Of a DNA stretch of 64,000 bases, positions 5,572-40,122 are shown piece by piece. The DNA lies in assembly GCF_000378185.1 (NCBI RefSeq), contig NZ_KB899381.1, positions 1 to 64,000 on the forward strand. Direction: 5' to 3'. The first letter of the stretch is position 1, and each line of letters begins with the position of its first letter. Made by a program: the position numbers and the translations under genes. The DNA is from Salinimonas chungwhensis DSM 16280 (GTDB lineage Bacteria; Pseudomonadota; Gammaproteobacteria; Enterobacterales; Alteromonadaceae). Below the pieces are notes generated by a model. It was given only the letters and a program-made list of their open reading frames with translations, was not told the origin of the DNA and ran no database searches.

Positions 5572-7665
5572 ATGAAATACAATCTTATCGCCGCGATGGT
5601 TGCGGCATCGCTTGGTCTTGCAGGCTGTGGACAGGCAGATCAGACCAACGAACAGCAGTCTGAACAACAAAAAGAAGCGTCTGCCAAGACAGCGCAAAAT
5701 AATGGTGAGCCGGAACTGGGTAGCTTCGGCGTTGATCTATCAGCCCGCGATGAGTCAGTCCGCCCGGGCGATGATTTTTTCCGCTATGCTGGCGGTACCT
5801 GGTATGACAATTTTGAGCTTCCTGCAGACAAAGTAAGGTACGGTGCCTTTAGTAAACTTTACGACCGGAGCCAGGATCAGGTTAAAGCCATTATCGACGA
5901 CATTATGTCTCGCGACGATCTGAATAAAGAAGAACAGATGGTCCATGACTTCTATAAAGCCTATATGGATACCGATGCAATTAACAAAAAGGGAATCGCG
6001 CCAATCTCTGATGTTATGAGCAAAATCGATGAGCTTGAAAATCATCAGCAGCTGACCGAATTGTTTGGTAGTGCATGGCTGTATGGTAACGCCTCCCCAT
6101 TATATGCCGGACTTTGGTATAACCGTCTGGATCCTAATGAGTATCAGGTCACTGTTGGCGTGGGTGGTCTTGGCCTGCCTGATCGTGATTATTATTTAGG
6201 TGATCAGGAACGCTTTACAGAGATTCGAAAGGCGTACCTGGCTCATGTTGAAGAGATGCTGACGCTGGCAAATGAAGAAAATGCCGCTGAAAAAGCAAAA
6301 CATATTCTTGACCTGGAAACCCAAATTGCTGAAATTCAGTGGCCTCGTGAAAAACGTCGTGACCGCGAACTGACGTTAAACCAGATCGAACGTTCTAAGC
6401 TTTCTGATGAGTACGCCGGTTTCGACTGGGATGCGTTTTTCAAATCAAGCGGCCTGAAAGCGCCTGAGCTGAACATGACCACGCCAGAGCCGATTAAAAA
6501 TGTCATTAAAATAGTTAATGATACTGATTTGGATGTGTGGAAAAGCTATCTGACCTATCACACTATTTCCAACAACGCTGATTTGTTGTCTGAAGATGTG
6601 TTTATGTCAAATTTTAATTTTTACGGCAAGACACTAAATGGTCAGCAGGAACCGCGTCCACGCTGGAAACGTGCGCTATCACAAATGTCAGGGACCGAGT
6701 CTTTAGGTTTTGCTATCGGTAAAATCTACGTCGATGAATATTTCCCTGAAAGCTCAAAAGAGCAAATGAAAGAGTTGGTAGAGAATCTGCGTGCGGCACT
6801 GAAAAAGCGCATCGAGAATCTCGACTGGATGGGTGAGGATACAAAAGAAGCAGCAAAAGAAAAACTGGCCGCTTTCCGCCCAAAAATTGGCTATCCAGAT
6901 GAGTGGGTTGACTTAGAAGGTGTCACAATCACTGAAGACCAGCTGGTCCAGAATGTGCGCAATCTGCGTGAGTTTTTCCAACAGCGTGATGTTGAAAAAG
7001 AACTGGAGCCGACTGATCGTGAACGTTGGGGGATGACACCACAAACCGTCAATGCGTATTACAATTCGTCGTTCAACGAAATTGTATTTCCTGCCGCAAT
7101 TTTGCAACCGCCATTTTTTGATCCCAATGCTGATCCTGCTGTAAATTACGGCGCTATTGGTGCCGTTATTGGTCACGAAATGGGGCATGGCTTTGATGAC
7201 CAGGGATCGAAATCGGATGCTAAAGGCATTCAGCGCAACTGGTGGACAGAAAAAGATTTAGAAGCATTTAATGCCAAAGTTGATAAGTTGGACGAGCAGT
7301 ACAGCCAGTACGAACCCATCGAAGGCAACAATGTGAATGGCCGCTTAACCCTGGGTGAAAATATTGGTGATGTTGGCGGTCTTTCTATGGCCTACGAGGC
7401 TTACAAAATAAGCCTTGATGGTGAAGAGCCACCAGTTATTGATGGCCTGACCGGCGATCAGCGATTCTTCCTGGCGTGGGCTCAGGTATGGCGTGAAAAG
7501 CGCACCGAGCAAAGCCTGATGAATCAGCTTCGTTCTGACCCTCATGCCCCTGCACGTTATCGCACCATGGCACCGCGTAACCTGGACGCCTGGTATAAAG
7601 CATTTGATGTAAAACCTGACGATGAACTGTACCTGCCAAAAGAAGAGCGTGTACAAATCTGGTAA
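5572..7665 (+). CDS. M13 family zinc metallopeptidase lipoprotein (PepO/neprilysin-like)
   Basis: A 697-aa exported peptidase. The N-terminus is a lipoprotein signal with lipobox LAGC (Cys19), followed by a Gln/Glu-rich linker. The M13 N-terminal domain then runs through LPDRDYYLG and similar motifs to the catalytic domain. Zinc motif HEMGH is at 535-539, and the third ligand is in ENIGD (Glu596, Asp600). Family substrate motifs NAYYNSSFNEIVFPAAILQ and the C-terminal VW end are present. Length is typical (650-700 aa). M13 enzymes cleave small peptides. Lipobox position suggests outer-membrane or periplasmic anchoring. It follows the FemAB-like gene by 2 nt and ends at a strong terminator. Confidence 0.95.
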   Translation: MKYNLIAAMVAASLGLAGCGQADQTNEQQSEQQKEASAKTAQNNGEPELGSFGVDLSARDESVRPGDDFFRYAGGTWYDNFELPADKVRYGAFSKLYDRSQDQVKAIIDDIMSRDDLNKEEQMVHDFYKAYMDTDAINKKGIAPISDVMSKIDELENHQQLTELFGSAWLYGNASPLYAGLWYNRLDPNEYQVTVGVGGLGLPDRDYYLGDQERFTEIRKAYLAHVEEMLTLANEENAAEKAKHILDLETQIAEIQWPREKRRDRELTLNQIERSKLSDEYAGFDWDAFFKSSGLKAPELNMTTPEPIKNVIKIVNDTDLDVWKSYLTYHTISNNADLLSEDVFMSNFNFYGKTLNGQQEPRPRWKRALSQMSGTESLGFAIGKIYVDEYFPESSKEQMKELVENLRAALKKRIENLDWMGEDTKEAAKEKLAAFRPKIGYPDEWVDLEGVTITEDQLVQNVRNLREFFQQRDVEKELEPTDRERWGMTPQTVNAYYNSSFNEIVFPAAILQPPFFDPNADPAVNYGAIGAVIGHEMGHGFDDQGSKSDAKGIQRNWWTEKDLEAFNAKVDKLDEQYSQYEPIEGNNVNGRLTLGENIGDVGGLSMAYEAYKISLDGEEPPVIDGLTGDQRFFLAWAQVWREKRTEQSLMNQLRSDPHAPARYRTMAPRNLDAWYKAFDVKPDDELYLPKEERVQIW

Positions 7666-17222: not shown

Positions 17223-17807
17223 TCAGTTTTTACGCCATTGCAGCAATAAATTATGCGCGGGCATCGGATGGATACCGCAAAGTATTAAAGGTTCAGCCCA
17301 CTGGATTAACTCATCAATATCGCGATATCCCCCATAGCCCTGCGCGACAAGTTTATGATGAAAATCCTCATTGCTTTGGCTATTAAACACCCCTTGCTGC
17401 GTAAAGGGCCCGTATTGACAAAATACGCCTCCTGAGGGAAGCGCTTCAGCAATTTGCGCAAGCATGATTTTCACCTCATCTGGCTGCATGATATGTGCAG
17501 TATTTGCTGTAAATACACCATCAAACCGCTGAGATGGAAAGAGATCCTGGCCTACTGTAAATGCTATCGGGCGCTGTAAATTAGCGTTGCCGAATTCATC
17601 GATCCAACTATTGATACCTTCGTGGTACTGCGGCTGGTCGCTGCTGTACCACTTTAAAAACGGTAATTTTTGCGCAAACCAGACAGCATGCTGGCCGGTA
17701 CCACTACCAATCTCCAGCACGCTCGAGCATTGTGCAAAGGCATTTTTTAAAATCGCCAGTATGGGGTGCTTATTGTTCTCGCACGCCTGACTATATGGTT
17801 TATTCAT
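17223..17807 (-). CDS. DUF938 family SAM-dependent methyltransferase
   Basis: A class I methyltransferase-fold protein of the DUF938 family (about 195-205 aa). SAM motif I is [11 protein letters not shown] near residue 30. NTAHIM and the QYGPFTQQG segment are DUF938 hallmarks. The open frame extends upstream to 17900, but the ATG at 17807 fits: the protein then begins [17 protein letters not shown] as relatives do, with an 8-bp overlap with the metH stop. The longer form would add 31 residues inside metH. It is the last gene of the methionine operon, so a link to the methyl cycle is plausible; the substrate is unknown. Confidence 0.88.
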
Positions 17808-20424
17808 TGATATTCGGCGCCAGCCATTTTCTGGCAGTCTGTTCATCCCAGTTTTTGCGTTGCGCATAATCCTGAAGTTGATCTTTTTGAATTTGTGCAA
17901 CAGCGAAATAACGGGACTCGGGGTGAGAAAAATACCAACCGGATACCGCTGCGCCGGGCCACATGGCGTAGCTTTCAGTTAGCCGCATCTGAGTGTGCTT
18001 TTCAGCCTCCAGCAAATCCCATATCAATTGCTTTTCAGTATGTTCCGGGCAGGCAGCGTAGCCAGGCGCAGGCCGTATTCCCTGGTATTTTTCCCGGATA
18101 AGCGCGTCATTATCCAGCGTTTCATCGCTGGCATAGCCCCAATAGTGTTTACGCACCTGTTCGTGCAGGTATTCGGCAAATGCTTCGGCTAAGCGATCTG
18201 CAACCGCCTTGACCATGATGGCATTATAATCATCACCGTCTTTGATGAACTTGTCAGCCAGCGCCTGTTCGCCAATTCCCGCGGTCACTGCAAAGGCGCC
18301 AATGTAATCATCGATGCCGCTATCTTTGGGTGCAATGAAATCAGCCAGGCAATAATTAGGGAATTTTTCTTTACGGGTTTGTTGCCGCAAATGATGAGAC
18401 ACGCCGATAACCTGCTGACGCGTGTCGTCGGCATATATCTCAATATCATCCAGCAAACGGTTTGCCGCAAACAGACCGATAACACCTTTGGCCTGCAGGC
18501 TGTCATTGGCTATCACCTCGTCCAGCATCGCATTGGCATCGTCAAACAAACTTCTGGCTTGCTCCCCCACAACATCATCATTAAGGATGCGCGGGTATTT
18601 GCCAGCTAAAGACCAGGTTAAGAAAAACGGTGTCCAGTCAATATAGTGCCGTAATGTTTCAAGTCCGGCGGTCACTGGGGTTACGCCTAATTGCCTGGGC
18701 ACAACCGGTGGTGTAGAAAAGTCAGGCGTAGCGGCATTATCACGAGCCTCCTGTAGAGAAACCGGTTTGGAGCGGGGTTTCTTACGCGCATGCTGATCGC
18801 GGACGGTATCATACTCTTTAGCTAATTCAGCGGCATAGATATCGCGACTTTTTCGATTCAATAATTTCTGACAGACCCCTACTGCACGGCTGGCATTAGC
18901 GACATAGGCAACTGGTGCATGATAATTTTGTTCAATTTTAACCGCGGTATGCGCTTTTGATGTTGTCGCGCCGCCAATTAATAACGGTAAATCAAAACCC
19001 TGGCGTTCCATTTCTTTGGCCACATGTACCATTTCATCCAGTGACGGGGTAATCAGGCCCGATAAACCGATCATATCAACATTTTCGTCCCTGGCTGTTT
19101 GCAGAATCTTTTCGGTAGGAACCATGACCCCTAAATCGATCACCTGGAAGTTATTGCATTGCAGTACCACACCCACAATATTTTTTCCGATATCGTGAAC
19201 ATCCCCTTTAACCGTTGCCAGCAATATTTTACCTGCGCTTTTATTATCGTCGCTTTTCTCTGCTTCTATATACGGCTGCAGATGTGCCACTGCTTTTTTC
19301 ATTACCCGGGCAGACTTGACCACCTGGGGCAGGAACATCTTCCCTTCGCCAAACAGATCGCCGACGATATTCATGCCATCCATGAGCGGCCCCTCAATCA
19401 CATGCAGTGGGCGTTCAGCTTGTTGGCGGGCTTCTTCCGTATCATCGATAATATAGTCAGTAATGCCTTTGACCAGCGCATGTGCGAGCCTTTTTGACAC
19501 CGGTGCGTCGCGCCAGGACAAATCTTCTTTGGCCGCTTCTTTGCCCTCCCCCTGGTACTTTGGTGCAAGGTCAAGCAGACGTTCTGTGGCATCGTCACGG
19601 CGATTTAAAATGACATCCTCAACAGCTTCGCGCAGCTCGTTAGGTATTTCATCATAGACTTCAAGCTGCCCTGCATTCACGATGCCCATATCCATTCCCG
19701 CTCGTATGGCATGATAAAGAAAGACAGAATGCATGGCCTCCCGAACCGGATTATTACCACGAAAGGAAAATGAAATATTTGAGAGGCCGCCGGAGATGTG
19801 TGCGTGAGGACAGGTCTGACGAATAATTCTGGTAGCTTCAATAAAATCTACCGCATAGTTATTATGCTCTTCAATGCCGGTAGCCACGGCAAAAATATTC
19901 GGATCAAAGATAATATCCTCAGGCGCAAAACCTACTTTCTCGGTCAGAATTTTATAGCTGCGCTGACATATCTCGACTTTTCGTTTCTGTGTGTCGGCCT
20001 GACCTTTTTCATCAAACGCCATTACGACGGTGGCAGCGCCGTAGCGTTTTATCAACGTAGCTTGATGAATGAACTGTGCTTCACCCTCTTTAATACTAAT
20101 CGAGTTAACAATGGCCTTGCCCTGAACACACTTAAGGCCTGCCTCAATCACTTCCCATTTAGACGAGTCGATCATAATAGGGACACGGCTTATGTCCGGT
20201 TCAGAAGCGATTAGCTTGAGAAACGTCTGCATTGCCTCGACTGAATCCAACATGGCTTCATCCATGTTGATATCGATAATTTGCGCGCCGTTTTCAACTT
20301 GCTGACGAGCAACATCAAGTGCAGTCTCGTAATCACCATCCATTATGAGGCGTTTGAAGCGGGCAGATCCCGTAACGTTGGTCCGTTCGCCGATATTAAT
20401 AAACGTAGAAAATTCAGCTGTCAC
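17800..20424 (-). CDS. metH: Methionine synthase, C-terminal polypeptide (folate, B12 and activation domains)
   Basis: An 874-aa product covering the last three modules of cobalamin-dependent methionine synthase. The pterin-binding domain starts at [15 protein letters not shown]. The B12 cap and Rossmann domain has DVHDIG with Asp408 and axial ligand His410. The reactivation domain contains [12 protein letters not shown] for SAM binding. The homocysteine-binding module is absent here and is encoded separately upstream (20433-21488) in another reading frame. The GTG start has a strong Shine-Dalgarno (AGGGGGAA), which argues for a genuine split gene rather than a sequencing frameshift. The two proteins should act together to transfer methyl from methyl-THF to homocysteine. 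Confidence 0.94.
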
Positions 20425-20432
20425 GCTTCCCC

Positions 20433-21488
20433 CTAGTGAACAAATGGTTCTAAACCGGATAAACGCATTTTAACGTCAAACCGGGGAATGGATCGTGGTG
20501 GCTGCCCGGCCACCGCATCTGCCAGAGCTTTAATATGTTCAGGTGTACTACCGCAACATCCGCCCACAATATTGACCAGCCCCGCCTGGGCCCACTCTTT
20601 AATGTGAGCTGCCATCTCGTCAGCTTCCATATCGTATTCGCCAAATTCGTTGGGCAATCCGGCGTTAGGATGCGCCGATACCAGACATTCAGCTACTCCT
20701 GCAATTTCTGCTACATACTGGCGCAGTAAATCCGGACCCAGTGCACAGTTAAGTCCAAAGGAGAAAGGGCTGATATGGCGTAACGAATAGTAGAAAGCTT
20801 CAGCGGTCTGACCTGACAATGTTCTGCCCGATGCGTCAGTAATCGTGCCCGATACCATGACTGGCAAAGTCAGTCCCAGCCGGTCGAAAACGTCATGTAC
20901 GGCAAACGCAGCCGCTTTAGCGTTGAGTGTATCAAAGATGGTTTCAAGCATTAGAATATCGACGCCGCCTTCAATCAGCGCTTCGCATGATTCTGTGTAA
21001 GCCTCGACCAGTTGCTCAAATGTAACGTTTCGTTTGCCCGGATCATTGACATCCGGTGATATGGACGCCGTGCGGTTAGTTGGCCCTAACACACCAGCAA
21101 CAAAACGCGGTTTCTGCGGATTTTCACTGGTGAACTTATCTGCAGCCCGACGCGCAAGCCTGGCAGATTCTACATTAATAAGATGCGCTTCGTTTTGCAT
21201 CTTGTAATCGGCCATGGCAATAGAAGTCGCATTAAACGTATTTGTCTCAATAATATCGGCACCGGCAGCAAGATAATCACAATGAATCTGATAAATCAGA
21301 TCTGGCTGAGTTACCGAAAGTAAATCATTGTTCCCTTTGAGATCGCAGTCCCAGTCAGCATATTGCTGACCGCGATAGTCAGCTTCATCCAGGTGATGTT
21401 GTTGAATCATGGTTCCCATGGCGCCATCCAGTACCAAAATGGCAGATTGTGCAGCCTGGGCAAGTTGTTCTGAGCGGTTACTGTTCAC
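20433..21488 (-). CDS. metH: Methionine synthase, N-terminal polypeptide (homocysteine methyltransferase module)
   Basis: A 351-aa barrel domain that binds homocysteine through zinc. Zinc cysteines are Cys248, Cys311 and Cys312 (GLNCALGPD and [10 protein letters not shown]), nearly the same numbering as E. coli MetH. The protein stops at [10 protein letters not shown], within the interdomain linker. A GTG at 21515 opens the frame, but the GTG at 21488 is preferred: it has GAGG 7 nt upstream and begins 1 nt after the metA stop. The C-terminal polypeptide starts 8 nt downstream in another frame. A stand-alone betaine or SAM-dependent homocysteine methyltransferase is possible but less likely given the exact linker fit. 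Confidence 0.92.
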
Positions 21489-21489
21489 A

Positions 21490-22434
21490 TCATACCTCGT
21501 TGTTGGGGCGAACACCCTGGTTCAGTGAGTTCAAATCAAATGGAGTTGTCTGATAAACATGATAATTAAGCCAGTTGGTAAATAACAAACTACCATGAGA
21601 GCGCCATCGTACCATGGGCGGCTTTTTGGGATTATTCTGCGGGTAGTAATTTTCAGGAATCTGCGGCGACTGCCCCGCTTCAGTGTCACGGAGAAACTCC
21701 TCGTGCAATGTTTCAGGGTCGTATTCGGGGTGACCGGTAATAAAAACTTTGCGTTTGTCATTCGTGGCAGCGATATAGGTTCCTGCATCTGCAGAGCGCG
21801 CCAGAACTTTCAATCCGGCGACATCTTCATACTGTTTGGTGGCGATGTGCCCGAAACGCGAGTGGGGCGCAAAAAAAGTAGGATCAAATCCTCTGAGCAA
21901 TTCATTGTGCGGGGTCAGTACCTGATGTTCAAAAACGCCTGAGATTTTATGCTCTCGCAAATGACGGTTTACACCATAAAAGTGAAACATAGCGGCATGC
22001 GCTGCCCAGCAGGAATAAAGCGTAGACTGAACGTTTTGCTCTGACCAATCAAATATTTCAGTCATCTTCGACCAATATTTTACCTGGGTGTACTCCAGAT
22101 GCGCCAGAGGAGCCCCCGTGACCATAAGTCCATCATAACGTTTATTTTCGACGGCGGAAAACGGATGGTAGAATGCATCCATATGCGACTGTGGTGTATT
22201 CTTAGGCGCCTGATCGTCAATGCGGATCAAATCCACATTAATTTGCAACGGCGTATTGGACAGTAGCCGAAGTAACTGTACCTCGGTTTCTATTTTGTTA
22301 GGCATTAGATTCAGAATACCGACTTCAAGAGGGCGAATATCCTGATGCGAGGCCCGCTGACTGTCCATAGTAAATATGTTTTCTCCCAGCAATACATCCT
22401 GTGCCGGAAGCTGTTCGGGAATTCTGATTGGCAT
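21490..22434 (-). CDS. metA: Homoserine O-acyltransferase MetA
   Basis: A 314-aa enzyme activating homoserine for methionine synthesis. The catalytic cysteine is Cys142 (YSCWAAHAA), with His235 and Glu237 in GHPEYD completing the triad. Residue 111, which decides the acyl donor in this family (Gly favours succinyl-CoA, Glu favours acetyl-CoA), is Ala here (GAPLAHLEY). A small residue fits succinyl-CoA better, but the assignment is not certain. It is the first gene of the operon metA - metH(N) - metH(C) - DUF938. A MetJ box lies 63-78 bp upstream of its start. Confidence 0.95.
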
Positions 22435-23124: not shown

Positions 23125-23616
23125 TCAAAGATTGGCAAGTTCATCCCATTCATCATCACTAAGCAGCTTATTGAGATCAACCAATATAAGCAACTCACCA
23201 TCGCGATTACTGACACCCTGGATAAATTTGGCACTTTCTTCCGTACCCACATTTGGCGCGCTGTCGATCTCAGAACTTTTCAGATAAACCACCTCTGCAA
23301 CGCTATCGACCAGAATACCTACCACCTGCTCATCCGACTCAATGATTACAATACGAGTATTATCTGTCGTCTCTGAGCCAGGCAAACCAAACCGGGCGCG
23401 GGTATCGATAACCGTAACCACGTTGCCCCGCAAATTAATGATACCCAGTACATAGTCCGGTGCTCCGGGTACGGGCGCTATTTCGTTGTAGCGAAGTACT
23501 TCCTGCACCTGCATTACATTGATTCCAAAGGTCTCATCGCCTAAGCGAAAGGTGACCCACTGTAATACTTCATCGTTACTATCTGGTGTATTGTTGGTTG
23601 TTCTTTCTTCACTCAT
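23125..23616 (-). CDS. cheW: Chemotaxis adaptor CheW
   Basis: A 163-aa scaffold that joins chemoreceptors to CheA. The CheW fold covers about 15-160, with the QWVTFRLGDETFGINVMQVQEVL start and the INLRGNVVTVIDTR receptor-contact strand. An N-terminal polar tail of about 18 residues is typical of this branch. It is the last gene before a terminator. Upstream are parP and parC, an arrangement known from Vibrio. Confidence 0.96.
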   Translation of the reverse strand: MSEERTTNNTPDSNDEVLQWVTFRLGDETFGINVMQVQEVLRYNEIAPVPGAPDYVLGIINLRGNVVTVIDTRARFGLPGSETTDNTRIVIIESDEQVVGILVDSVAEVVYLKSSEIDSAPNVGTEESAKFIQGVSNRDGELLILVDLNKLLSDDEWDELANL

Positions 23617-23642: not shown

Positions 23643-24419
23643 CTAATCCTGACTGCCTAAGCCATTGTTTAGCATTAATATTAGCTGGTTTACATCAACT
23701 AACGCACACATTTTTTCTTTCACGGTCCCTGCCAGCCAGGGCCGTCGGGAGTTGGCGCCGCGCCACTTAACCTCATCCTTTGCTAATGTTGTGGTATTTA
23801 CCAGTTTGTCGCTGGCTAGCCCCCACAGGCTGTCACCCAACATTATCAGGTATTGATAGTTTAGTGTCTCCGACATATTTTGATCATATTTTTCGGGCAT
23901 AACCCACATGGCGGTGTCTACTACATTGATCTTTTGATCGCGATGTAGCATCACTCCTTTAAACCAGGCCGGCTTACCAAATAACGGGCCGACTTTCTCA
24001 AGTTGGTGAATACCACCCAACGTAATAAGCGGTACCGCTAGTGTCAGCCCTGCCACCTCGAAAAACAGGGCCTGAAATCGCTCTTCAAGCTGATCTTTAA
24101 GGGCCAGCACAGAGTTAGTCGGTGCATGATGACCAGCCGCAGAAGCCGCAGAGTGGACGTCCGTCTGATCCGACTCAGCCGGGACTGGAACGTCCACGGG
24201 CTGCAAAACCTGGGCGGGCTCAAAATTCGTCGGCTCAGCGCGGCGAATAGTGGTATCAACCGGCTCGACCTGTGATTCATCAGCAAGTTGTTCAGCGGCC
24301 TTTTTCAACAGGCGTGCTGTGGTATGGCTGACGGGATCGGCGTTCGCAGGTTCGGTCAAAAGACTATCCAGATAGTCTTCCATCACCGCGTCCTGCATAT
24401 TTCGGCTGTGGTTAGTCAT
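23643..24419 (-). CDS. parP: ParP-like chemotaxis coupling protein with CheW-like domain
   Basis: A 258-aa protein. The N-terminal 100 residues are Pro/Ala-rich and disordered. A C-terminal CheW-like (AIF) domain spans about 110-250 and contains LEERFQALFFEVAGLTLAVPL. In Vibrio, ParP binds CheA and ParC and keeps chemoreceptor arrays at the pole. It overlaps parC by 8 bp and lies 26 nt before cheW, so the three are coexpressed. The assignment rests on domain layout and position; sequence identity to Vibrio ParP could not be measured. Confidence 0.85.
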   Translation of the reverse strand: MTNHSRNMQDAVMEDYLDSLLTEPANADPVSHTTARLLKKAAEQLADESQVEPVDTTIRRAEPTNFEPAQVLQPVDVPVPAESDQTDVHSAASAAGHHAPTNSVLALKDQLEERFQALFFEVAGLTLAVPLITLGGIHQLEKVGPLFGKPAWFKGVMLHRDQKINVVDTAMWVMPEKYDQNMSETLNYQYLIMLGDSLWGLASDKLVNTTTLAKDEVKWRGANSRRPWLAGTVKEKMCALVDVNQLILMLNNGLGSQD

Positions 24420-25191
24420 TGCTTGATCTCACACCGAGCGCTTTAAGCAATTGCTGATAAGCATGCACGCCCCGCGTTCGGGGAAATGCAATGGATGCTG
24501 GCAATTGAGCAAGGCTGGCATCGCGAAAACGCGTGTCTACCGGTATCATGCCTTGCCATACATCATTTTTATAATCAGTCATCAGTTTTGCCTGAGCTTT
24601 AATCGCCGCATTAGTCCGTCGGTCAAACATTGTAGGTACGATAAGCGTGTCGAACTGCTTATCCAGTGACCGCCCCATAATTGTTAACGTCTTCATCATC
24701 CTGTCCAGCCCTTTTAAAGCCAGAAACTCTGTCTGCACAGGTACGATTACCTTATCGCAGGCAGCGAGAGCATTAACCATCAACACACCCAGAACCGGCG
24801 GGCAATCAATCAGCGCTACATCAAAACGGTGCTTGACCGTTGCTAGCGCTTTTTTAAGGATGAGGCCCATCCCAGGTTCGCTACCCATCTGTCGATCCAG
24901 CGTGGCAAGTCCCATGGTTGCAGGTAGCACATACAACCCGTCCACTTTGGTCGGAGACAGGCAATTCAGTACTGTATCGGCATCGATAGTCGCTTTATTA
25001 ATAAAAATATCGTAAACAGAGCTGGTCAACCCATCCACATCGACACCAAAATAATAGCTCAACGATGCATGAGGGTCTGTGTCGATTAACAGAACCTGTT
25101 TTCCCTGCTGAGCAAGCAATCCGCCAAGGCTTACAGTGGTAGTGGTTTTGCCCACGCCGCCTTTTTGATTTGCTACAGTCCAAATCTTCAA
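24412..25191 (-). CDS. parC: ParA-like ATPase ParC (polar localisation of chemotaxis arrays)
   Basis: A 259-aa MinD/ParA-type ATPase. The deviant Walker A motif KGGVGKTTT is at 10-18, and LLIDTDPHASLSYYFG follows. The CPPVLGVLMVNAL segment and the RTNAAIKAQ region match the chromosomal ParA group found in che operons. In Vibrio this protein positions chemotaxis proteins at the flagellated pole and hands them to daughter cells. It is unrelated to topoisomerase ParC despite the shared name. No parB partner is near, which fits the polar rather than segregation role. Confidence 0.88.
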   Translation of the reverse strand: MKIWTVANQKGGVGKTTTTVSLGGLLAQQGKQVLLIDTDPHASLSYYFGVDVDGLTSSVYDIFINKATIDADTVLNCLSPTKVDGLYVLPATMGLATLDRQMGSEPGMGLILKKALATVKHRFDVALIDCPPVLGVLMVNALAACDKVIVPVQTEFLALKGLDRMMKTLTIMGRSLDKQFDTLIVPTMFDRRTNAAIKAQAKLMTDYKNDVWQGMIPVDTRFRDASLAQLPASIAFPRTRGVHAYQQLLKALGVRSSND

Positions 25192-25201
25192 CCACTGCCC
25201 C

Positions 25202-26347
25202 CTAAGATGCCGGCATCATTTCGCTGCAAACACAATCTGCCATATGGTCAATCGCAATACTTTTTTGCGCGATACTGGCTTTTGTCACCGCCTGAGGCAT
25301 ACCGAAAACCACACAGGACGCCTGGTCCTGTGCCCATATACTGGCGCCCAGCTGTCTGAGCTTGTCACAACCGTCTTTACCATCGGCGCCCATGCCGGTC
25401 AGAATTATGCCCAACACATCACCGCCATAAACCTCTGCTAAACTGGCAAAGGTCACATCTACACTGGGTTTGTATGCATTTGAAACATCGTCGGCGTTAG
25501 TTATTTGAAGTATCACCTCAGATTGTCGGCGCTGAACGCGCATTTGCTTACCGCCTGGTGCCAGATAGGCATGGCCAGGTTTTAACACATCGCCCGGTTG
25601 CGCTTCTTTAATCTGAATAGCGCACTGATTATTTAAACGTTGTGCAAAGGCGGAGGTAAAGGTGCCGGGCATATGCTGAACCAACAGCACGGGGTAAGGA
25701 AAATTTGCTGGTAGTGGTGTTAATAATTTTTGCAGTGCTACTGGCCCACCGGTAGAAGCGCCTACCGCCAAACATTGATAGTGTTTGCCGGATTTAATGA
25801 CTGAAGAGACAGTAGGAATAACGGCGGCATCTTTCTGTCCGGTCAACACCGACGATGAGCGTAAGAATGTAGACTTTGGGGCACTGCGCGCTACCGCCGG
25901 AGGCACTGACCGACTGGCAGTGCTGATGGCAGGTCTTCGCATACCGACGCCGCGACGCGCAATTAATCTGACTTTTGTTCGCAGTACAGCGGCTGCCTGT
26001 TCACGTTCTGAAGCGATGTCATCAAACTTCTTGGGCAAGAAATCCAACGCGCCGGCCTCAAGAGCATCCAGTGTCGCTTGCGCTCCCTGATGCGTGAGTG
26101 ATGAAAACATCAAAATAGGCACAGGTCGCTGCTGCATAATTGCTTTAACTGCGCTGATGCCATCCATAACCGGCATTTCCACATCCATGGTTACCACATC
26201 AGGTGACAGGCGCATTAACATCTCTAATGCTTCCTGACCATCTCTGGCCTCGCCGATAACTTCAAGTTCCCGATCGGCATTTAAGATTTCACGAACACGA
26301 CGGCGATAGAAGGTTGAATCATCCACCACCAGAACTTTAAAAGCCAT
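25202..26347 (-). CDS. cheB: Chemotaxis protein-glutamate methylesterase CheB
   Basis: A 381-aa response regulator-methylesterase that removes methyl groups from chemoreceptors. The receiver domain (1-120) has phospho-acceptor Asp55 (TMDVEMP). A variable linker of about 70 residues leads to the CheB methylesterase domain (about 190-375), with catalytic Ser in GASTGGP, His in LVQHMPG and Asp in GMGADG. It lies between cheA (30 nt) and parC (10 nt). No cheR is present in this window. Confidence 0.97.
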   Translation of the reverse strand: MAFKVLVVDDSTFYRRRVREILNADRELEVIGEARDGQEALEMLMRLSPDVVTMDVEMPVMDGISAVKAIMQQRPVPILMFSSLTHQGAQATLDALEAGALDFLPKKFDDIASEREQAAAVLRTKVRLIARRGVGMRRPAISTASRSVPPAVARSAPKSTFLRSSSVLTGQKDAAVIPTVSSVIKSGKHYQCLAVGASTGGPVALQKLLTPLPANFPYPVLLVQHMPGTFTSAFAQRLNNQCAIQIKEAQPGDVLKPGHAYLAPGGKQMRVQRRQSEVILQITNADDVSNAYKPSVDVTFASLAEVYGGDVLGIILTGMGADGKDGCDKLRQLGASIWAQDQASCVVFGMPQAVTKASIAQKSIAIDHMADCVCSEMMPAS

Positions 26348-26377: not shown

Positions 26378-28648
26378 TTAGTGCTTACGCGCGTAGCGCT
26401 TGAGCAATCCGGGAATATCCAGAATCAGCGCAATCCCACCATCAGACGTAATTGTCGCGCCGGCCATACCAGGTGTGCCTTGCAATAAAGCATCCAGAGG
26501 TTTGATGACCACCTCTTCCTGACCGATAAGGGCGTCCACCACAAAACCAACCTGCTGAGTGCCAATTTGAACGACCACTACATGGCCTTTCTCTCTGTTC
26601 TCAGCTTTGCCACCCCGAATAAGCCAGTCACCCAGGAAAAACAGCGGTATAGCTTTGGAGCGCACGATCATAGTCAGTTGCCCGTCTACCGTGTTGGTTT
26701 TCTGAACATCCATATTAATAATTTCGCTGACCGCACCAAGCGGCAATGCGAATGTTTGCTTACCGACAATGATCATCAAGGTCGGCAAAATGGCCAGCGT
26801 CAGTGGTACTTTAATATCAAGACGCGTGCCTTTGCCTAATTGAGAATCGATACTAATGGTACCGTTAAGCTGAGTAATTTTAGTTTTGACCACGTCCATA
26901 CCAACGCCGCGGCCAGAAATATCGCTGATCTCTGTTTTAGTAGAAAATCCAGGGGCAAAAATTAAATTGAAGGCGTCTACATCAGACATGCGCGCGGCAG
27001 CATCAGCATCCATCACCCCGCGGCTTATGGCAATTTCTTTAAGCTTTTCCGGGTCCATGCCTTTACCATCATCTTTGATAGTAAGCATAATATGATCACC
27101 TTCCTGCGCAGCTGACAGGCGCACGGTACCCATACGATCTTTACCATTTTCCTGACGCTCATCAGGCATCTCAATACCGTGATCGACAGAGTTTCTGACC
27201 AGATGCACTAATGGATCGGCCAGAGCCTCCACCAGATTTTTATCCAGATCAGTATCTTCCCCATCCATCTCTAAGGTTATTTCTTTTTTCAGACTACGGG
27301 CCAGATCTCTGACAACCCGAGGAAAGCGACCAAACACTTTCTTGATAGGCTGCATACGCGTTTTCATAACCGCGCCCTGCAAATCGCCGGTCACCACATC
27401 AAGATTTGCTATCGCTTTGGTCATTGCCTCATCATTAGTGCTGATACCAAGACTGAGCAGACGATTACGCACCAGCACCAGTTCACCGACCATGTTCATA
27501 ATCTGGTCCAGCCGTTTGGTATCGACCCGAACGGTGGTTTCAGCCGGTGGGGGGGTTGCAGCCGCTTTTTTATCATCTTTTTTCGGCGCCGGGCCAGAAG
27601 GGGCTGCTGGTTTGCTGTTCTGTGGAGCAGATGCTGTTGTATCCGGCTGTCGGGCCTGCTGTTGCTGACGTGCTTCGCTAACTGCTTTGGTCGCCTCAAC
27701 ATCTACTCTGACACGTGGTTTATCGCTGGCTGACTGTGAATCACCCGCTGCCGGCTCTTTCAGTGACGGTGCCTGACCTTTGCCATGTAACTGATCAAGC
27801 AACGCTTCAAATTCGTCATCGGTAATTTCATCATCACCGCTTGGGCTGTGTGATGAGGCTGTCGGGTTTTCCGTTTGTGCGGTTTTTTGCGCACTAAACT
27901 GACCTTTCCCATGCAAATCATCGAGCAATGCTTCAAATTCATCATCGGTGATATCATCGCCACCAGCTGGAGCTGCCGTAGGGGCTACGGGTTGGTTTTC
28001 CGTTTTGGCTGCAGCATTTTCCGGCGTGGCAGGTTTTCCCGGGGCGCCGGCGCCATGCAGCTCATCTAACAGTTTTTCAAACTCATCTTCAGTGATTTGA
28101 TCGATATTACCGCCATTATTTCCACCGGTCACAGCAGTAACTTCAGGCGGCTGCGGTGTTTCTTCGACAACCAGCTCAGGCTCGTCGTCCATATTCACGT
28201 CGGCGGCGGGCTGTTGGCCAACGCTTGTCTGGTCATCAAAGATATTCTCTTCAGGTGATTCAGGCTGACTGAGCTTATGCAGAAGGTCAACTAAAGCAGG
28301 GTTTGCAGGTTCCAGGGGCTCACGGGCTTTGACACTTTCGAACATTGCCACAACCACATCGGTGGCTTGCAAAATCACGTCCATAAGCTCTGGTGTTAAT
28401 GTTCGCTGTCTGTTACGCATTACGTCGAACACATTTTCCGCACCATGACAGATTTCCACAAGTTCTGTCAGCGCCAGAAATCCGGCACCACCTTTGACCG
28501 TGTGGTAACCACGGAAAATGGCGTTTAGAAGATCCCCATCATCCGGGTGATTTTCCAGATCAACAAGCTGTTCCTGAAGTTGCTCCAGAATTTCTCCGGC
28601 CTCAACCAGAAAGTCCTGTAAAATATCTTCATCAAGATCAAACGACAT
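26378..28648 (-). CDS. cheA: Chemotaxis histidine kinase CheA with triple linker repeat
   Basis: A 756-aa kinase. The P1 HPt domain has phospho-acceptor His49 (GYHTVKGGAG). Next is a long acidic/Pro-rich linker holding three copies of the motif [DE]EFE.LLD.LHG at about 185, 233 and 275. Then come P3 dimerisation (starting near VRVDTKRLDQIMNMVGE), the P4 ATPase with N box LVRNSVDHGIE and G boxes, and the CheW-like P5 regulatory domain. No canonical P2 CheY-binding domain is obvious between the repeats and P3. In ParP-bearing species the linker includes the segment that binds ParP, so the repeats are candidates for that role. It is longer than E. coli CheA (654 aa). Confidence 0.96.
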   Translation of the reverse strand: MSFDLDEDILQDFLVEAGEILEQLQEQLVDLENHPDDGDLLNAIFRGYHTVKGGAGFLALTELVEICHGAENVFDVMRNRQRTLTPELMDVILQATDVVVAMFESVKAREPLEPANPALVDLLHKLSQPESPEENIFDDQTSVGQQPAADVNMDDEPELVVEETPQPPEVTAVTGGNNGGNIDQITEDEFEKLLDELHGAGAPGKPATPENAAAKTENQPVAPTAAPAGGDDITDDEFEALLDDLHGKGQFSAQKTAQTENPTASSHSPSGDDEITDDEFEALLDQLHGKGQAPSLKEPAAGDSQSASDKPRVRVDVEATKAVSEARQQQQARQPDTTASAPQNSKPAAPSGPAPKKDDKKAAATPPPAETTVRVDTKRLDQIMNMVGELVLVRNRLLSLGISTNDEAMTKAIANLDVVTGDLQGAVMKTRMQPIKKVFGRFPRVVRDLARSLKKEITLEMDGEDTDLDKNLVEALADPLVHLVRNSVDHGIEMPDERQENGKDRMGTVRLSAAQEGDHIMLTIKDDGKGMDPEKLKEIAISRGVMDADAAARMSDVDAFNLIFAPGFSTKTEISDISGRGVGMDVVKTKITQLNGTISIDSQLGKGTRLDIKVPLTLAILPTLMIIVGKQTFALPLGAVSEIINMDVQKTNTVDGQLTMIVRSKAIPLFFLGDWLIRGGKAENREKGHVVVVQIGTQQVGFVVDALIGQEEVVIKPLDALLQGTPGMAGATITSDGGIALILDIPGLLKRYARKH

Positions 28649-28661
28649 CAGCCCCTACTCC

Positions 28662-29411
28662 TTAAAAACCTAAGCTAGACAAAAGGTCATCAACATCGTC
28701 CTGACCTTTTACAACGTCGCTGCGTTCTTCGGCATTGATAATAGGCCCTTCAGCTTCGACTTTGTCATTCTGTTTTTTGTGGCTCTGCGCCGGAACTGAT
28801 TCGCCCTCACGCTCGCCGAACATGGTTAGCATATTAACCAGGCTATCTTCGACTTCTTTAACCAGTTCGATAACCCGACGAATAACCTGACCGGTAAGAT
28901 CCTGATAGCCTTGGGCCATGAGCACTTCGGTAAGTAAAGAGGTTAAGCGATCGGATTCTGAAGATGCATCGTTAAGCAGATTATCCAAATCTGCACACAA
29001 TGTTTTAAACTCACCCACTTCAATCTGACGTGTCATAAGCTTTTTCCACTCTGGCATCAGCAAATCAATGCGCTGAGAGAGCGATTCAGCAATAGGCATA
29101 CTTGCCTCAACAGCATCCATCGTAGTGTTGGCCGCTTTTTCCGTTTCTTCGATAACGTAGGTTAAACGTGTCTGTGCATCGGGAATTTCATCATTGGCCA
29201 GACCTGCAATGCGTTCATCCAGCTGAAAGTTATTGAGAGCATCATGCAACTGCCGGGTGAGTTTGCCTACTTCTGCAAATAACTCTATGGATTCCTTCAT
29301 TGACACTGCCTCAAGCAGCGCGTGAGCAGATTCGTTATCGCCCTGCTCCAGGTACGTTACAAGTTGCCGTGCTTCTTCCAATGAAATAGGAACATTGACA
29401 TTCGTAGTCAT
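28662..29411 (-). CDS. cheZ: CheY-P phosphatase CheZ
   Basis: A 249-aa helical protein that dephosphorylates CheY-P. The catalytic helix segment AQGYQDLTGQVIRRV (about 172-186) contains the conserved Gln. The long four-helix-bundle core precedes it. The C-terminal CheY-binding peptide DDVDDLLSSLGF is intact. It lies between cheY and cheA with short gaps, the usual gammaproteobacterial order. Confidence 0.95.
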   Translation of the reverse strand: MTTNVNVPISLEEARQLVTYLEQGDNESAHALLEAVSMKESIELFAEVGKLTRQLHDALNNFQLDERIAGLANDEIPDAQTRLTYVIEETEKAANTTMDAVEASMPIAESLSQRIDLLMPEWKKLMTRQIEVGEFKTLCADLDNLLNDASSESDRLTSLLTEVLMAQGYQDLTGQVIRRVIELVKEVEDSLVNMLTMFGEREGESVPAQSHKKQNDKVEAEGPIINAEERSDVVKGQDDVDDLLSSLGF

Positions 29412-29445: not shown

Positions 29446-29829
29446 TCAACCTAAACGTTCGAAAATTTTATCGAGCTTTTCTTTCAACGTCGCGGCTGTA
29501 AACGGCTTCACAACATAACCATTAACACCTGCCTGAGCAGCGGCTACAATTTGCTCTTTCTTAGCCTCTGCAGTTACCATCAATACCGGCAAATGCTTAA
29601 GCTTTTCATCAGCCCGAATGTTGCGCAGCAAATCGATGCCCTGCATACCCGGCATGTTCCAGTCTGTAACCACAAAATCAAAGTCGCCTTGCTGTAACAT
29701 GGGAAGCGCGGTACTTCCGTCATCGGCTTCCTGGATGTTGGAAAACCCCAAGTCTTTAAGCAAATTCTTTATGATTCGTCTCATAGTAGAGAAATCATCT
29801 ACCACAAGAATTTTCATATTTTTGTCCAA
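29446..29829 (-). CDS. cheY: Chemotaxis response regulator CheY
   Basis: A single receiver domain that binds the flagellar switch when phosphorylated. The acidic pocket VDDFSTMRR, phospho-acceptor Asp in VVTDWNMPG, the Thr in MVTAEA and the Lys in VVKPF are all present. The open frame starts at GTG 29841, but TTG 29829 is preferred: it has a perfect GGAGG 5 nt upstream and gives a 127-aa protein starting [12 protein letters not shown], as in Vibrio and Shewanella. The upstream GTG is part of that Shine-Dalgarno region. Confidence 0.96.
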
Positions 29830-29881
29830 AATGGCCTCCACTGGGGACTAGTAAATTGTTATTAGTAATTATTCTTCGTGT

Positions 29882-39063: not shown

Positions 39064-40122
39064 TTACAGGTCTTCTTCAAGTACTTGCAGTTCCGCATCA
39101 TTATCGATGATACGGCCCCCGCGGGTTAAAAGTTGTAGCTCTGATTTTACCGAGGTTGGTCGTGGTATTTTCTCGATAATTTTGAGCGCCAGATTATCTC
39201 TGGAGCGCCCGAGCTTGGCTCTGAATGTTGGCAGATCCTCAATCATTACCGTTATATGCTCTGGCATCTCCACCGGAATAATATCCCCGGCTTTAAATTC
39301 CATGACCTGCTTTAATGAGACTTCTACGTCCAGCATGTGGGTGGATAGTGCCACATCCACATCCATAATTTCATCGCGCAGTGCCTTGCTCCAACGCAAA
39401 TCTGTATCTTCTTTATCGCTTTGTACACCGGCATCCAGTAACTCCCGGATAGGCTCAAGCATCGAGTATGGCAATGACACATGAAAATCGCCACCACCTC
39501 CGTCCAGCTCTATATGAAACGAGCTGATCACCACCACCTCCGTGGGACTAACAATGTTTGCCATGGCCGGATTCACTTCTGAGTCAAGATACTCAAACGA
39601 CACGTCCATAACAGGTGCCCAGGCTTCTTTGTAATCCTCGAAAATAATTTTCAGCAGCATCTGGATAATACGACGTTCAGTAGGCGTAAATTCCCGCCCC
39701 TCAATTTTGGCGTGGTAACGGCCATCGCCGCCAAAAAAGTTGTCTACCAGAATAAACACCAGTCGCGCTTCCATGGTGATAAGCCCGGTTCCTTTTAAGG
39801 GGCGAAACCGCACCATATTTAAACTGGTAGGCACAAATAAGGTGTGAATGTACTCACCAAATTTGATCATCTGGATGCCGTTAATTGAGACCTCGGCGGA
39901 TCGTCGCATCATATTAAAAAGGCTTACCCGCAAATGCCGGGCGAAGCGTTCGTTGACGATTTCCAGCGTTGGCATTCGCCCGCGTACAATTCTATCCTGT
40001 GAGGAGAAGTCATACTCGAGCGCCGAAGAATCGGAGGGCGACTCGCTGGCCTCTTCTTCTTCAACATCATCAACACCGTGTAAGAGGGCGTCAATTTCAT
40101 CCTGAGATAATAAATCGCTCAC
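39064..40122 (-). CDS. fliM: Flagellar motor switch protein FliM
   Basis: A 352-aa C-ring protein that binds CheY-P. The N-terminal CheY-binding peptide LLSQDEIDALLHGVDD is present, followed by the CheC-like middle domain and the FliN-like C-terminal domain. GGG(D)GRYH and the GDIIPVEMPEHI segment are diagnostic. Length is typical. Confidence 0.97.
   Translation of the reverse strand: MSDLLSQDEIDALLHGVDDVEEEEASESPSDSSALEYDFSSQDRIVRGRMPTLEIVNERFARHLRVSLFNMMRRSAEVSINGIQMIKFGEYIHTLFVPTSLNMVRFRPLKGTGLITMEARLVFILVDNFFGGDGRYHAKIEGREFTPTERRIIQMLLKIIFEDYKEAWAPVMDVSFEYLDSEVNPAMANIVSPTEVVVISSFHIELDGGGGDFHVSLPYSMLEPIRELLDAGVQSDKEDTDLRWSKALRDEIMDVDVALSTHMLDVEVSLKQVMEFKAGDIIPVEMPEHITVMIEDLPTFRAKLGRSRDNLALKIIEKIPRPTSVKSELQLLTRGGRIIDNDAELQVLEEDL

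Follow-up and report, generated by a model that had tools for sequence, protein, structure and literature searches.

A survey of 13,673 CheA proteins found that over half of them lack the P2 domain and have an unstructured linker instead, and P2 is held there to be dispensable (PMC10542144; journal version of this survey of CheA architecture, PMC10782961). The accessible parts of the survey name no substitute for P2 (PMC10542144). One element that has been described in the CheA linker is LID, a region located between P2 and P3, just before P3, which binds ParP and has been reported only in CheAs that are accompanied by ParC/ParP (PMC5706961, PMC7534058). CheY, on the other side of the reaction, is bound by short peptides: EIDALL is the CheY-binding motif of FliM and sits in the groove between alpha4 and alpha5 of CheY, 1F4V being a CheY entry with a peptide of this kind (PMC9126983), and one face of CheY is common to CheZ and FliM (PMC3774744).

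The window analyzed here is a stretch of 64,000 nucleotides of Salinimonas chungwhensis DSM 16280 (contig NZ_KB899381.1, positions 1 to 64,000). It includes a minus-strand flagellar and chemotaxis operon with fliM, fliN and further genes up to fliA, followed by cheY, cheZ, cheA, cheB, a parC-like gene, a parP-like gene, cheW and a DUF2802 gene. The order cheY-cheZ-cheA-cheB-parC-parP-cheW next to flagellar genes is that of the ParP/ParC (F6) type of CheA. The F6 label presumably applies beyond Pseudomonas, including to the window operon; for the Pseudomonas system it was taken from PMC12410967.

All genes that matter to the comparison are on the minus strand. The products of cheW (23125..23616) and cheB (25202..26347) were identified with Pfam, as were the parP-like gene (23643..24419), which has a C-terminal CheW-like domain (Pfam CheW, 1.8e-13, at 116-247), and the parC-like gene (24412..25191), which encodes a ParA-family ATPase (Pfam AAA_31, 2.6e-46). 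CheZ (28662..29411; Pfam CheZ, 1.6e-77) was aligned to the C-terminus of the E. coli-type CheZ 1kmi_Z; it ends in GQDDVDDLLSSLGF, and its C-terminal 13-mer, KGQDDVDDLLSSL (28671-28709), served as a comparison peptide. FliM (39064..40122) begins with MSDLLSQDEIDALLHG and has the N-terminus MSDLLSQDEIDALLHGV, from which the comparison 13-mer at 40072-40110 was taken. The product of cheY (29446..29841), the proposed ligand, scored above the NCBIfam CheY cut-off and matched CheY chains in the PDB with E values of 1e-74 and below, the 1f4v sequence being matched at about 1e-55. We take it to be a close relative of the CheYs that were solved with FliM- or CheZ-type peptides. Elsewhere in the window, methionine synthase (17800-21515) is present as two ORFs, 20433-21515 and 17800-20424, and the split presumably falls between the homocysteine and the pterin parts of the enzyme.

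The gene cheA (26378..28648, minus strand) encodes a 756-amino acid protein that consists of an Hpt domain at residues 8-97, which is P1, a disordered linker at about 143-371, and P3-P4-P5, with no P2. Pfam matched Hpt, H-kinase_dim, HATPase_c and CheW, and left residues 98-370 unmatched. The initial annotation had pointed to three copies of an acidic helix motif in the linker, spaced by 48 and 42 residues, and these could be located precisely as three copies of IT[DE]DEFExLLDxLHG with that spacing, each with a core of 13 residues, on the minus strand. Repeat 1 (28043..28102, DQITEDEFEKLLDELHGAGA) has its core, ITEDEFEKLLDEL, at residues 185-197 (window 28058-28096); repeat 2 (27899..27958, DDITDDEFEALLDDLHGKGQ) has ITDDEFEALLDDL at residues 233-245 (27914-27952); and repeat 3 (27773..27832, DEITDDEFEALLDQLHGKGQ) has ITDDEFEALLDQL at residues 275-287 (27788-27826). 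The motif scores of repeats 1, 2 and 3 were 32.2, 34.8 and 36.6 bits with a profile whose 73 rows include these three repeats themselves, and the best of 20,000 shuffles of the linker reached 18.2 bits. The close similarity of repeats 2 and 3 at the DNA level that had been noted before is borne out by 51 identical bases out of 60, the values being 40/60 for repeats 1 and 2 and 38/60 for repeats 1 and 3.

The repeats stand where a P2 domain would be expected, and P2 is missing, as the initial annotation had implied. At an E value of 0.01, Pfam profiles of the P2/CheY-binding domain (PF07194, PF09078) had no match in two sets of 38 and 48 rows, which comprise 84 distinct repeat-type CheAs; HMMER is not very sensitive for P2, since it found the domain in 4 of 30 repeat-less CheAs. 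An AlphaFold model of the window CheA, made with 48 aligned CheAs, has well folded P1 and P3-P5, and pLDDT is below 50 over most of residues 143-371. Apart from a short helix at 138-142, the linker helices of this model are three segments of 11 residues each that fall on repeats 1, 2 and 3 (187-197, 235-245 and 277-287, respectively). A disordered linker, with three short helices at 145-158, 176-186 and 208-219, was likewise predicted for a CheA of Dyella whose genome yielded no ParC ortholog. Neither of the two models has a folded P2 domain in the stretch from P1 to P3. Such a fold at the repeats, which would have spoken against the annotation, was thus looked for and not seen, and a P2 domain hidden in the linker was rejected on the basis of the Pfam results for the window CheA and the 84 sequences together with AlphaFold. 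What the repeats share with P2 is the place between P1 and P3 and the proposed job; they differ from it in that P2 is a folded domain, while the repeats are short helices only, with neither a Pfam match nor a fold.

The array is old and fixed in the genus, because exactly three copies with position-specific signatures were present in all 30 same-genus CheAs read (59 genomes were searched) and because the repeats match the catalytic domains in conservation: the mean fraction of the majority residue across the 30 proteins is 0.96 for the repeats, 0.96 for P1, 0.97 for P3-P5 and 0.56 for the remaining linker. The earlier suggestion that the array may vary in number therefore fails within the genus and holds between families. 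In a class sample of 38 CheAs, one per family, copies scoring at least 18 bits numbered zero in 2 proteins, one in 3, two in 13, three in 18 and four in 2. The zero-copy pair consists of a CheA of another type (L102) and one with two divergent copies (L100). Two loci had been removed before copies were counted, one cut by a contig end (L086) and one with a gap in cheA (L088), the N-terminal fragment of which has two repeat variants; the 73 rows of the repeat alignment (A1) omit two weak CheA windows and L100, and the CheAs of L075 and L164 are identical. In most related CheAs from further families of the Gammaproteobacteria (Vibrio, Shewanella, Pseudomonas, Xanthomonadales) the number is 1-4, and repeats are present in CheA of Vibrio, Shewanella, Pseudomonas, Moritella, Aeromonas, Dyella and Stenotrophomonas; in the Pseudomonas CheAs examined, 3-4 repeats were counted and Pfam detected no P2. 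Among the matches listed for the window CheA, the best named one is the Alteromonas gracilis CheA (77% identical), and 80 named CheAs from among these listed best matches divide into 48 with 1-4 copies and 32 with none. The CheAs without copies belong to other kinds (Helicobacter, betaproteobacteria, Nitrospirae and others), with the exception of a Lysobacter CheA (L215) that has one divergent copy.

Two observations were made in the course of this comparison. In a same-genus genome, cheA is broken into two frames with stops inside the match (G020:C1:1155758-1157979), and a contig labelled as a Klebsiella pneumoniae MAG (L171) carries a ParC-type cheA locus and is probably mislabelled or a contaminant.

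The core of the CheA repeat, EFEALL, resembles those of the FliM peptide, EIDALL, and of the CheZ C-terminus, DVDDLL. Profiles of 13 columns were built from 73 CheA repeats, 37 FliM peptides and 35 CheZ peptides, and used in six-frame scans of the window (63,072 positions) and of 79 loci of other families (415,558 positions). In the window, CheZ came fourth with the FliM profile and the three repeats second, fifth and ninth; with the CheZ profile, FliM came second and repeats 2 and 3 fifth and eighth. With the CheA profile FliM came sixth, since all three repeats and a pair of unrelated positions scored higher, and it was hence third outside CheA; CheZ was absent from the first 12 of this profile among the 63,072 positions. 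In the 79 loci, where the 39 FliM peptides include two with variant letters, the CheA profile at a threshold of at least 11 bits recovered 39/39 FliM and 5/35 CheZ peptides along with 27 other positions, and at least 8 bits were reached by 21/35 CheZ peptides alongside 127 other positions. With the FliM profile and a threshold of 10 bits, 34/35 CheZ peptides, 71 CheA positions and 58 others were recovered, and the CheZ profile, at 12 bits or more, recovered 39/39 FliM peptides, 27 CheA positions and 9 others. The CheA profile thus recovers CheZ weakly. BLASTP of repeat 3 against FliM gave 6/12 identical and 9/12 similar residues (E 0.032, for a single comparison), and the 20-column HMM of the repeats (A1), at E values up to 10, gave no match to FliM or CheZ in the genome of origin, nor to any chain in the PDB, CheZ 1kmi included.

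The repeats have the acidic flank and the hydrophobic-x-x-L-L core of the FliM N-terminal and CheZ C-terminal motifs, the match being weak in the direction from the CheA profile to CheZ, and in both AlphaFold models they are short helices on a flexible tether. With the FliM N-terminal peptide they share the short helix, the cap residue, the acidic flank, the core and the tether (LSQDEIDALL in FliM, ITDDEFEALL in CheA); they differ from it in being internal to a linker and present in 1-4 copies, in having Phe where FliM has Ile, and in the DxLHGKG that follows. The CheZ C-terminal peptide, encoded by the gene before cheA, has a similar core, D[DE]VDDLL, and differs in being terminal and single, in its SSLGF end and in being weakly matched by the CheA profile. 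The LHGKG tail and the Phe of the CheA repeats are found in neither FliM nor CheZ.

These similarities have to be weighed against the possibility that the helices are spacers or serve SHOCT-like oligomerization or intramolecular contacts, the likeness to FliM being a convergence of short, amphipathic, acidic helices. Generic helix-cap features are indeed present, and Pfam SHOCT gave sub-threshold matches to the repeats in 19/38 and 33/48 rows at E 0.01. An identity with SHOCT was rejected, the window CheA scoring 17.4 bits against a cut-off of 27 with half of the profile covered. Because helices of this type share a generic cap, cap-matched windows were compared as a control: 84.9% of 86 CheA repeat windows reached at least 9 bits on the FliM profile, versus 0.9% of 760 other windows. 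The likeness to FliM is therefore more than a helix cap. Furthermore, the repeats are isolated short helices in a low-confidence linker in both AlphaFold models, and their spacing of 29-68 residues (median 41, 146 spacings) is too varied for a rigid spacer. We consider this explanation very improbable.

Several other occurrences of such motifs were noted. Outside the flagellar and che genes of the window, the second-best match to the FliM profile (5866-5904) is in an ORF that by eye encodes a peptidase-like lipoprotein, and was set aside as chance. The sequence RIDDDEFDALLNDL occurs in the same genome near the N-terminus of what appears by eye to be an AraC-type regulator with an HDOD-like region (G000:C15:42658-42702, L136; E 0.0056); this match was taken as chance because it showed no non-CheA recurrence in 20 relatives. 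In one genome (G065) L-L is replaced by V/I-L in CheA as well as in CheZ but not in FliM, so no covariation is claimed. The N-terminus of a FliN (L142:1890-2426, plus strand) contains ISQDDVDSLMDGG, a FliM-like CheY motif, and judging by this motif the FliN of that family may also bind CheY through a peptide. A stretch EVEAEI[EQ]RLL, a conceivable CheY peptide, is present in the linker of Campylobacterota CheAs (L197, L198, L201).

We propose, with a probability that we put at roughly 0.7, that the repeats are CheY-docking peptides that substitute for P2 and vie with FliM and CheZ for a shared groove of CheY, a reading that is based on the repeats and their conservation, the missing P2, the predicted linker structure and the sequence similarity. 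The three repeats would act as short helices that are tethered by a disordered linker and dock CheY in place of a folded P2, each of them (ITDDEFEALLDxLHG) imitating the FliM (LSQDEIDALL) or CheZ (QDDVDDLL) peptide that grips the alpha4-alpha5 groove. A series of weak sites placed between P1, the phospho-donor, and the kinase core could concentrate CheY at the polar array, and their multiplicity on a flexible tether could allow a fast exchange of CheY and a quicker phosphotransfer from P1. As CheA, CheZ and FliM would all occupy one and the same groove, a given CheY molecule could undergo docking, dephosphorylation or motor binding, but only one of these at a time. In the F6 system of P. aeruginosa, CheY-eYFP is seen at the pole in overlap with CheA-CFP (PMC12410967), as would be expected if the array holds CheY.

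FliM-type peptides prefer CheY-P over CheY about 20-fold (PMC7355467), a preference that, by analogy, would fit a substrate dock less well. Because of it, a store of CheY-P is a live alternative within the same general scheme: the FliM-like repeats could bind CheY-P after the transfer, as a polar reservoir or brake beside the flagellum, rather than dock the unphosphorylated substrate. Nevertheless, a FliM peptide also binds unphosphorylated CheY (a structure of this kind is named in the reference list of PMC7355467), and a reservoir would leave CheA with no substrate dock, so that we regard this version as quite improbable.

The docking role that the initial annotation had left open between ParP, CheY and another polar protein is tilted by the likeness to FliM and CheZ and by the place of P2 toward CheY as the probable ligand. 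The repeats could also be LID, or part of it, and bind the AIF domain of ParP, thereby tethering the arrays to the polar anchor ParC, with additional copies providing avidity. They resemble the LID of Vibrio CheA in their location in the linker and in belonging to ParP/ParC-type systems, LID being compared here by its published description, and the window operon contains both parC and parP. In addition, loci with ParC have more copies than those without it (means of 2.85, n=67, and 2.11, n=18; Mann-Whitney p 0.0015, uncorrected for relatedness, several of the 18 loci ending at a contig edge); a CheA of another type (L102) and a partial one (L180) had been removed before this comparison. The extra copies may serve ParP.

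However, this explanation leaves the likeness to FliM unaccounted for, and repeats were found where ParC and ParP were not. Sixteen genomes, drafts included, were chosen because ParC or ParP was seemingly absent or doubtful at the cheA locus; in 7 of them a ParC-like match of 176-268 bits was obtained, and in the other 9 the best match was below 140 bits, which we take to represent other ParA proteins. All nine genomes in which neither a ParC ortholog nor ParP was found (G065, G076, G078, G079, G173 (Allochromatium), G174 and G175 (Dyella), G177 (Acidithiobacillus) and G178 (Hydrocarboniphaga)) bear 1-3 copies, those of G078 being two weak ones only. The ParP search found the gene in 2 of 15 genomes (the genome of origin and G147) and is insensitive, since it also missed ParP in genomes where ParC is present. 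The repeats are thus not confined to CheAs with ParC/ParP, as LID is reported to be, to the extent that a weak ParP query and draft genomes define this set. ParP is not needed to explain the repeats, because these nine genomes bear them; ParP as the sole ligand is disfavoured for the same reason, and we consider the LID explanation unlikely. One further locus (G085; L068, L139, L140) has a che operon in which cheA encodes three repeats and is accompanied by cheZ and parC/parP, with a FlhB-like fragment upstream of cheY; no FliM was found in this genome, which has either lost its flagellar genes or been misassembled.

No description of these repeats, or of FliM-like motifs within CheA, was found in the open-licence papers searched. 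We rate the kind of docking peptide as known, and its place in the CheA linker and its copy number as new. We give an even chance to the wider proposal that a P2-less class of gammaproteobacterial CheAs docks its substrate through an array of motifs that mimic FliM and CheZ, so that kinase, phosphatase and motor compete and the copy number tunes polar CheY. The reading of the repeats as CheY-docking peptides predicts a direct competition of CheA, CheZ and FliM for CheY. If the linker holds such motifs, the docking function would have been moved into short peptides in this class rather than lost, which would account for the polar location of CheY in Pseudomonas-type systems, and peptide docking would be one general answer to the question of how P2-less CheAs find CheY.
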